Assembly (NCBI RefSeq): GCF_021233435.1 | Contig: NZ_CP089468.1 | Coordinates: 2,466,597-2,530,596 of the forward strand | Direction of reading: 5' to 3' | DNA from: Halobacterium noricense | GTDB taxonomy: Archaea; Halobacteriota; Halobacteria; Halobacteriales; Halobacteriaceae | DNA: 64,000 nucleotides | Shown: in pieces, positions 41,187 through 43,187 of the stretch | Layout of the letters: each line of letters opens with the position of its first letter | How positions within the stretch are numbered: the stretch's first letter is position 1 | Program-made: the position numbers and the translations under genes | Notes under the pieces: model-generated | What the model saw: only the letters and a program-made list of their open reading frames with translations | The model's database searches: none | What the model was told of the DNA's origin: nothing

Positions 41187-41453
41187 TTCTTCGACCTCAC
41201 GAACGGACAGCGACAGAGCAGTCGCTGTCCGGGTCGAGTGTCAGAGAAGTGCGCCGACCGGGAGTGAGCAGTCCGCAGGACTGCGAACATCGGAAGACGC
41301 CAGCGTCTTCCGGGAATTGAACCAGAGTCAGACGTGCTCGCTCACGTCGTTCGCTGCGCGCGACTGACAGGGCTCAATTTCCCTCGCGCATCTACCGAGA
41401 TATCGAACGGCCAGCGACACAGCCGTCGCTGGCCGGTTCGAGTGTGAGAGGAG
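41187..41453 (-). pseudogene. tRNA-Gly 3'-end remnant split by a palindromic insert
   Basis: The sequence GTGCGCC.ACCGGGA (41249-41263) resembles the acceptor and T-arm end of the intact tRNA-Gly at 41454. It is interrupted by 46 bp and then continues as ATTGAACC (41316-41323). CCGGGA flanks the interruption on both sides (41258-41263 and 41310-41315). The DNA left of both copies is also duplicated (GATATTCTTCGAC../GATATCGAACGG.., then TCGAGTGT.AGAG.AGTGCGCC). So this is a degenerate tandem copy of the tRNA 3' region, not a functional tRNA. No integrase gene is nearby. Confidence 0.6.
41264..41315. mobile_element. Twin-hairpin palindromic insertion in the tRNA-Gly remnant
   Basis: 46 bp plus a 6-bp duplication CCGGGA (41258-41263 and 41310-41315). 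Two adjacent hairpins: GCAGTCC-GCA-GGACTGC (41268-41284) and GGAAGAC-GCCAGC-GTCTTCC (41292-41311). Size and layout match the insertion in the crotonase gene (53 bp plus 5 bp). The second stem is the same sequence as the stem of the hairpin in repeat copy R3 at 57.7 kb. Confidence 0.6.
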
Positions 41454-41524
41454 TGCGCCGTCCGGGAATTGAACCCGGGTCGCGGGCTTGGGAAGCCCGA
41501 GTCATACCACTTGACCAACGGCGC
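41454..41524 (-). tRNA. tRNA-Gly (anticodon CCC)
   Basis: 71 nt folding into a full cloverleaf. Acceptor GCGCCGT pairs with ACGGCGC, then discriminator A. The anticodon stem CGGGC / GCCCG closes loop TTCCCAA with anticodon CCC, reading GGG glycine codons. The T loop is GTTCAATTC. No intron, no encoded CCA. Confidence 0.95.
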
Positions 41525-41645: not shown

Positions 41646-42452
41646 ATGACTGCGCCAGACACGATTGCGCCGCTGGACTTGCGCTTCTCCGAATCGGAGT
41701 TGGCCGCGCGCCGCGACCGCATCCAGTCGTTCGTTCGGGAGACGCTGGAAGCCGCGGGCGCTGACCGCTGCGTGCTCGGGCTGTCGGGCGGCATCGACTC
41801 GACGACGGTCGCACACCTCGCCGTGGACGAACTCGGGACTGACGCCGTTCACGGGCTCGTGATGCCGGGCAAGGTGTCCAGCGAGCAGAACATGAGCGAC
41901 GCCGAGCGCGTCGCCGACGACCTCGACATCGAGTACGACGTCGTGGAAATCGACCCCGTCGTCGACCTCCTGACGGACCTCTATCCGCCCGCGGAGGGCG
42001 ACCAGCTCGCCGTCGGGAACGCGCGGGCGCGAACGCGCGCCGTGCTCAACTACCTCGTCGCCAACTACGAGAACGCCGTCGTGCTCGGCACCGGCAACCG
42101 CACGGAAGCGCTGGCGGGCTACTTCACGAAGTACGGCGACGGCGCGGTCGACTGTCACCCCATCGGGAACCTCTACAAGATGCAGGTGCGCCAGCTCGCG
42201 CGCGACCTCGGCGTCGAGGAGGACCTCGTGACGAAGACGCCGACCGCGGAATTGTGGGCCGACCAGACGGACGAGGCGGAACTCGGCGTCGACTACGACA
42301 CCATCGACGCGGTGCTGGCGCTCCACGTCGACGGGAACGTCCCGGCGGGCGCGACGGCCGACCACCTCGGGATTCCGGACGGCGCCGTGGAGACGGTGCG
42401 CGGGCTCTACGAGCGTAGCAAGCACAAGCGCGCGGTGCCGCCGACGCCCTAA
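41646..42452 (+). CDS. nadE: NH3-dependent NAD+ synthetase
   Basis: 268 residues. Last step of NAD synthesis: amidation of deamido-NAD using ATP and ammonia. The PP-loop is LGLSGGIDSTTVA (47-52 core). Other family blocks: GKVSSEQNMSDAERVA, GTGNRTEALAGYFTKYGDGAVD and HPIGNLYKMQVRQLARDLG. No glutaminase domain is fused. The TAA stop overlaps the stop of the broken crotonase gene (CTAA, 42449-42452). Confidence 0.94.
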   Translation: MTAPDTIAPLDLRFSESELAARRDRIQSFVRETLEAAGADRCVLGLSGGIDSTTVAHLAVDELGTDAVHGLVMPGKVSSEQNMSDAERVADDLDIEYDVVEIDPVVDLLTDLYPPAEGDQLAVGNARARTRAVLNYLVANYENAVVLGTGNRTEALAGYFTKYGDGAVDCHPIGNLYKMQVRQLARDLGVEEDLVTKTPTAELWADQTDEAELGVDYDTIDAVLALHVDGNVPAGATADHLGIPDGAVETVRGLYERSKHKRAVPPTP

Positions 42453-43187
42453 GTCTCGAACGGCCCGTCGGCCAGGAGGCGGGCGAACGCGTCGGCTTCC
42501 GCCCGGTCAGAAGATTCGCGGTCGGCTTCCGAGGTGAGCAAGCCGGCGAGTTCGCCGAGGGCAGCCGGGTCGTTGGCCGCGATTTCGTCCACGATCGTTC
42601 GCGGGTTCTCGACGATTCTGGAGACCAGACCGATGTCGCGGGCGGTCTCGGCGTCGATGGTGCGCCCGGACAGCGAGAGGTCCGCAGCGTGTGTGGACCC
42701 GACCGCGGCGGGGAGCCGACGGGTGCCACCCCACGCGCCGAACACGCCGAGCGAGACGCCGGGTTCGGCGAACGTCGCCGCCGGCGTGCAGACGCGGATG
42801 TCGCAGGCGAGCGCGAGTTCGACGCCGTCGTCAGAACGCGATGCGTTCTGACTGGCTCGCGAGAGCTTTGCTCTCGCGAACGCCACCACGTGCCGCGCCG
42901 TCCACCCCCGCAACGACGACGCTGTCCGCGTCCTCGATGGCGTTCATCGTACGCTAGCCGCGGCGCGCGAACGCCTCGCCGCAAGGCCCATCGAGACCGT
43001 GGACGGTATCGAGGTCGGCACCCGCACAGAACGCGTCCCCAGCGCCGTGGACGTACACGACCGGCTGGTCGGCGTCCGTCACGCCCTCGCGGAGGCCGTC
43101 GAGTGCCTGCGGCGTGAGCGCGTTCCGGGCGGCCGGCCGGTCGAGGGTCACCACGCGGACGGCCTCGTCGGCTTCCACGCGAAGCAT
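42449..43187 (-). pseudogene. Enoyl-CoA hydratase/isomerase family gene, broken
   Basis: Two parts of a crotonase are visible. The 5' part reads MLRVEADEAVRVVTLDRPAARNAL and GAGDAFCAGADLDTVHG, and the 3' part VELALACDIRVCTPAATF to the stop. Two lesions separate them: an in-frame TAG at 42954-42956 (a CAG Gln in relatives is likely), and a 58-bp insertion at 42827-42884 that shifts the frame. Deleting the 58 bp rejoins GAARGG to VELALACD in one frame. Normal length would be about 230 residues for this beta-oxidation-type enzyme. Confidence 0.85.
42827..42884. mobile_element. Twin-hairpin palindromic insertion in the crotonase gene
   Basis: A 53-bp insert plus a 5-bp duplication ACGCC (42822-42826 and 42880-42884). 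It consists of two adjacent perfect 10-bp hairpins. The first is GTCAGAACGC-GAT-GCGTTCTGAC (42830-42852), the second TCGCGAGAGC-TTT-GCTCTCGCGA (42857-42879). Because removing it restores the local reading frame and it is bounded by a short direct repeat, it behaves like a tiny transposed element. It encodes no protein. Confidence 0.7.

Follow-up and report, generated by a model that had tools for sequence, protein, structure and literature searches.

What is the short segment that interrupts a crotonase gene of Halobacterium noricense with two adjacent hairpins, and how did it get there? The locus lies in a 64,000-nucleotide stretch of DNA (the window; 67% G+C) from a 3.3 Mb genome in three contigs. 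The analysis points to a non-autonomous mobile palindromic element that inserts at GRC^GNC without duplicating its target, with an HUH/Y1-type enzyme acting in trans as the candidate for its mobilization. We assign this reading a probability of roughly 0.78.

The insert in the crotonase gene

The twin hairpins are real and far beyond chance. In 200 windows simulated with a first-order model, no twin perfect hairpins appeared, and a single strand of the element folds as DNA with z = -6.7. The two perfect 10-bp hairpins with 3-nt loops, the ACGCC on both sides and the crotonase host gene, all described in an earlier note on this DNA, are present at the positions given in Table 1. Read on the minus strand, the element has the order GTT-hairpin 2-linker-hairpin 1-GAC.

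Table 1. Features of the crotonase locus, in window coordinates
Feature	Position	Strand	Basis
Whole inserted element, 55 bp	42827..42881	-	Empty site in relatives; covariance model match 42827-42881, E 1e-22
Hairpin 1, GTCAGAACGC-GAT-GCGTTCTGAC	42830..42852		Sequence, DNA folding
Linker TGGC (family consensus ~TGGGCT)	42853..42856		Sequence, family alignment
Hairpin 2, TCGCGAGAGC-TTT-GCTCTCGCGA	42857..42879		Sequence, DNA folding
First ACGCC; the GCC part belongs to the target at the C^G cut	42822..42826		Empty site
Second ACGCC; AC belongs to the element end, GCC completes ancestral GCCGCC	42880..42884		Empty site
Crotonase (enoyl-CoA hydratase/isomerase) host gene, interrupted by the 55-bp insert and a TAG	42449..43187	-	PF00378

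The crotonase gene was matched in 39 of the 59 genomes searched, and the relatives aligned at the DNA level, including ten of the same genus, lack the insert. They read GGC^GGC-GTC without interruption, with two successive glycine codons before GTC. The H. noricense gene reads GGTGGC, then GTTCGCGAGAGC...TTCTGACGAC, then GGCGTC. The small insertion proposed earlier is thus genuine, with a net length of 55 bp in place of the proposed 58 bp, and the empty site differs by three bases from the single GGC-GTC that had been predicted, a mismatch of the kind that the earlier note had listed as grounds for refuting its reading.

The same alignment bears on the kind of element involved. The ACGCC on both sides suggests a conventional MITE whose insertion duplicated 5 bp of target; the earlier note read the segment as an insertion with such a duplication. 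This duplication is only apparent: GCCGCC was already there in the ancestor, the second ACGCC consists of the terminal AAC of the element and target GCC, and other insertion sites show no duplication. The terminal inverted repeats of a MITE are likewise absent; as the earlier note had rightly seen, the palindromes are nested inside the segment. The empty site refutes the duplication, and the chance that the element is a conventional MITE is practically negligible.

The nearest crotonase orthologue, in genome G004 (protein 89% identical), is empty at this site; the insertion therefore either postdates the split from G004 or never existed in the G004 lineage. The H. noricense gene also contains a TAG codon, located upstream of the insert at 42954-42956 (minus strand). 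The G001 orthologue (L135), which has no element, is frameshifted by one base close to this position. Together, these defects indicate that the gene is decaying in more than one lineage. In our best explanation, the host gene was dispensable or already decaying.

Elsewhere in the window, two similar hairpin-bearing stretches lie at 41200-41260 (GAACGGACAGCGAC..GTCGCTGTCCG) and 41400-41480 (GAACGGCCAGCGAC..GTCGCTGGCCG), the latter adjoining an apparent tRNA gene on the minus strand. They are perhaps a partial duplication.

A twin-hairpin family in haloarchaea

The element is one copy of a haloarchaea-wide twin-hairpin family. The two-hairpin layout, which the earlier note had suggested looking for elsewhere in the genome, occurs there in tens of copies; the breadth of the family, its defined target site and its habit of in-frame insertion were missed in that reading. 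Searches of the H. noricense genome returned many TCAGAA-n-TTCTGA sites with a short linker and another hairpin, different in sequence, behind them. In gene-sense orientation, a copy reads GTT-hairpin 2-CAGCCCA-hairpin 1-GGAC and measures 48-60 bp. The stems are 8-11 bp long, the loops are mostly of 3 nt, and the first stem pairs are T-A and C-G. All hairpins are internal, and the element ends, GTT and GGAC, form no terminal inverted repeats. An unpaired CGTC at one end is made up of a flanking C, present in most cases, and the GTC of the element before hairpin 1. The family consensus contains no GTAG tag.

The structure was assessed in an alignment of 56 distinct copies over 63 columns, in which the proposed two hairpins are paired in 99.0% of cells. 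The stems vary between copies while pairing is kept: there are 169 double-change cells compared to 48 +/- 5 in shuffles, and the covariation score is 0.459 compared to 0.125 in shuffles and at most 0.077 in slid versions. The search pattern itself required the six TCAGAA pairs, which accounts for their invariance, and the second hairpin is not independent evidence in this set, as only copies having one were retained. A clean test of the second hairpin came from a scan of named records with a pattern that required only hairpin 1 and the linker. All 47 haloarchaeal loci fitted the full two-hairpin model (E <=1.2e-14), and none of the 33 other loci did. The named records fitting the model all belong to haloarchaea or unclassified euryarchaeal bins.

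G-U pairs are common in structured RNAs. In this family, G-U and U-G pairs make up less than 1% of paired cells, and at a shared site the loop is sometimes exactly inverted from one copy to another (ACA/TGT, GAA/TTC). Both features fit hairpins or cruciforms formed by DNA, and the retention of pairing almost without G-U suggests DNA hairpins.

The pattern TCAGAAN{5,14}TTCTGAYNGGCT matched in 22 of 59 genomes, and its reversed control gave no matches. Among 148 genomes of the phylum, strong covariance-model matches (E below 1e-9) were confined to the order of H. noricense, where 21 of the 24 sampled members had them; outside it, only single weak matches were obtained. The H. noricense genome contains 38 model matches at E 0.001 or better, a count that includes related hairpin families. 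Distant subfamilies with the linkers TGTGC and TCATC are under-counted, since a single pattern supplied the copies from which the model was made. All 17 matched plasmid records are haloarchaeal, and a partial match is located on a Haloferax mediterranei plasmid. None of the 38 pattern matches in viral contigs fitted the model, and an Rfam search of the kilobase around the crotonase element gave no match.

Several other hairpin units were observed alongside the family. At five H. noricense loci (L051, L054, L057, L059 and L044), a second twin-hairpin unit of ~61 bp (TGGTTCGAGAGGAC..GTCCTCTCGTCATCCCGAGAGACG..CGTCTCTCGGTCGA) lies within the linker of a family-1 element; L049 has the same element without this inner unit. 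Related twin-hairpin units with a TCATCA linker occur at L004 and L041 of this genome. A further, nearly identical two-hairpin unit, CCGGAAATC..GATTTCCGAGGCCTCGGGAGAGC..GCTCTCCCGG, is repeated at several of its intergenic places near CTTATCTGAACACC (L032, L034-L038, L044). In genome G029, five copies (L120, L153-L156) are situated within a larger intergenic palindrome (GCCGGGAGGCGGGCG ... CGCCCGCCTCCCGGC), which indicates that the elements nest in other hairpins.

Target site, host genes and movement

Insertion takes place between C and G of GRC^GNC and adds exactly the length of the element, without target duplication. The logo of ~89 sites has C in 96% before the cut and G in 94% after it. 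Empty sites for 13 further genes give a net insert of approximately GTT to GAC with no consistent duplication. The hosts among these genes include the helix-hairpin-helix domain of an NAD-dependent ligase, a MinD/ParA-like ATPase, an NAD kinase-like protein, DUF84, a lipoyl ligase and a SAM hydroxide adenosyltransferase. The best demonstration of duplication-free insertion is provided by filled and empty IS605 copies within one genome: in G010, one tnpB copy is empty (TTCGGC^GTCCAAATG), while two copies carry a 60-bp element and nothing is duplicated.

The copies inside protein genes were called from the codon usage of their flanks, with the reading frame ignored; a mixed call at L128 was settled by orthologues. 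Fourteen copies lie within sequence coding on one strand, and the crotonase copy makes 15. All 15 have one and the same orientation (p=6e-5). The length is a multiple of three in 12 of these 15 copies and in 26 of the 88 others (Fisher p=3e-4). The excess rests on 15 copies; the figure for the others comes from automatic boundary calls and may include in-gene copies missed by the codon test, so the contrast would be conservative. An earlier count of 13/13 in-frame copies was set aside because an open frame had been a condition for selecting the loci. The three exceptions in genes are L114, L371 and the crotonase copy, which is out of frame and breaks its host. In our best explanation, in-gene copies are retained mainly if their length is divisible by three.

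In-frame copies encode ~16-20 extra residues, similar to VRKTTxSSSAAHQNAxRSED, and are probably translated as a hydrophilic peptide. An annotated P-type ATPase of Halomicrobium urmianum (RefSeq WP_225336054.1) carries LRKTESSGARQNAARSED. One H. noricense gene (L167, C1:2685210-2685458) holds two in-frame copies of nearly the same sequence, spaced 190 bp apart; each stands in the context ADELG^VD. A PDB search with an inserted peptide gave no match. Inserts of ~20 residues of this kind in haloarchaeal proteins should be regarded in annotation as DNA insertions and not as functional motifs.

Hairpin-forming inserts in coding genes bear a resemblance to mitochondrial bypass elements. An insert of this kind might be spliced out of the RNA as a BHB intron of the archaeal type, or skipped by translational bypass, leaving host genes unharmed. 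The excess of multiples of three would not be needed if the insert were removed, the two hairpins are separate and form no bulge-helix-bulge, and G-U pairs are nearly absent. Removal or skipping at the RNA level is very improbable.

By analogy with IS200/IS605 transposition (PMC3119063), we propose that the two hairpins would be recognized on single-stranded DNA by a putative HUH/Y1-type (IS200/IS605-like) enzyme supplied in trans. This enzyme would cut the left side after GRC and the right side after the GGAC that belongs to the element; the cut strand would then be moved to another GRC. The resemblance of the element end to the target would explain head-to-tail arrays. Insertion after the element's own GGAC end predicts the arrangement found in G036 (L287-L290), where two or three twin-hairpin units with different stems abut exactly at AAC|GTCC. 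Y1 transposases (PF01797) showed no positive association with the element: they were found in 8 of the 22 genomes with the element and in 22 of the remaining 37, a rough comparison since the pattern misses variant copies. They are absent from several nearly complete element-bearing genomes.

IS605 elements often carry twin hairpins inside their ends or their tnpB gene and may serve as vehicles for them. At L117 and L149 (G004) and L124 (G047), twin hairpins occupy the same place in a repeat, GGAGTAACGGCGG..GGCCCCGTCC, which by inspection resembles a tnpB-type element at its 3' end. The frequent association with IS605 in these genomes would also fit a terminal-only PATE, that is, fused IS200/IS605-type end palindromes left after core deletion and moved by the TnpA of that transposon. 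The report on Haloquadratum walsbyi PATEs (PMC3119063) describes haloarchaeal elements with near-terminal palindromes, no terminal inverted repeats and no target duplication, including terminal-only forms of 52 bp, close to the length of the twin-hairpin element. However, the examined IS605 copies have other ends (LE ...TTTTAGCTGAA, RE ...TTCAC) with the twin hairpins inside, hairpin-bearing IS605 has an empty counterpart in the same genome, and no cargo-bearing element ending in both hairpins was found among the hairpin-1 sites of the H. noricense genome. Full-length IS605 copies were rejected as parents on account of their ends and the internal position of the hairpins. We consider the PATE origin unlikely.

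Comparison with known systems

Most of what is known of palindromic elements that persist inside proteins comes from Rickettsia and some other bacteria. Like the Rickettsia palindromic elements (RPEs), the haloarchaeal elements are short, mobile and without a known transposase, and they add a peptide by inserting in frame into unrelated protein genes; here this was found both in the 13 genes with empty orthologues and in the frame-blind count. In contrast to RPEs of ~100-150 bp, the family is archaeal, measures 48-60 bp and has two unlike hairpins in fixed order, a GRC^GNC site and no duplication. No description of archaeal in-frame palindromic elements was found in the open-access literature, which is weak evidence of absence. 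Tentatively, and at somewhat less than even odds, we envisage an archaeal protein-inserting palindromic family that evolved apart from the RPEs and moves as single-stranded DNA through an unrecognized HUH enzyme or host replication and repair. The codon phase of GRC^GNC would favour in-frame insertion, and hydrophilic loops of 16-20 residues would continually be added to haloarchaeal proteins.

The anatomy recalls the CGTC-tagged REP dimers surveyed by Di Nocera et al. in 2013 (PMC3733652). The flanking C and the GTC of the element form an outer CGTC, and both groups comprise hairpin dimers with stems in the 8-11 bp range and intragenic in-frame copies and have no dedicated transposase. These features speak for an archaeal member by descent of this superfamily, which includes Rickettsia RPE-4 and RPE-6. 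However, the surveyed REPs have 8-9 bp stems, loops of 4-5 nt, AT as the first two stem positions and a CCA-like tail, whereas the haloarchaeal elements have mostly 3-nt loops, other stem starts and GTT at the second end; the survey reports bacteria only (PMC3733652). Such descent is somewhat unlikely. The family bears on a standing question, the mode of movement of CGTC-type elements. Its boundaries are exact, its target preference is captured in a logo, and empty sites and tandem arrays are at hand, as are both filled and empty copies of an IS within a single genome; haloarchaea are a group with tractable genetics, to which the bearer of the partial plasmid match also belongs.

REPINs mobilized by RAYT transposases likewise consist of two REP-like hairpins moving as one non-autonomous unit; the haloarchaeal family differs in lacking a GTAG tag and a consistent Y1/RAYT gene. 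Insertion at a fixed short site without duplication is a trait that the family shares with the PATE and IS200/IS605 type. Compared by description, PATE palindromes are IS605-type ends, whereas the twin hairpins insert into IS605 and have no cargo-bearing parent among the hairpin-1 sites of H. noricense; in-frame insertion into genes is not described for PATEs in the available part of the report (PMC3119063). The family thus behaves like RPEs, is close in anatomy to CGTC-tagged REP dimers and recalls PATEs in its duplication-free insertion, and none of these systems fits every tested feature.
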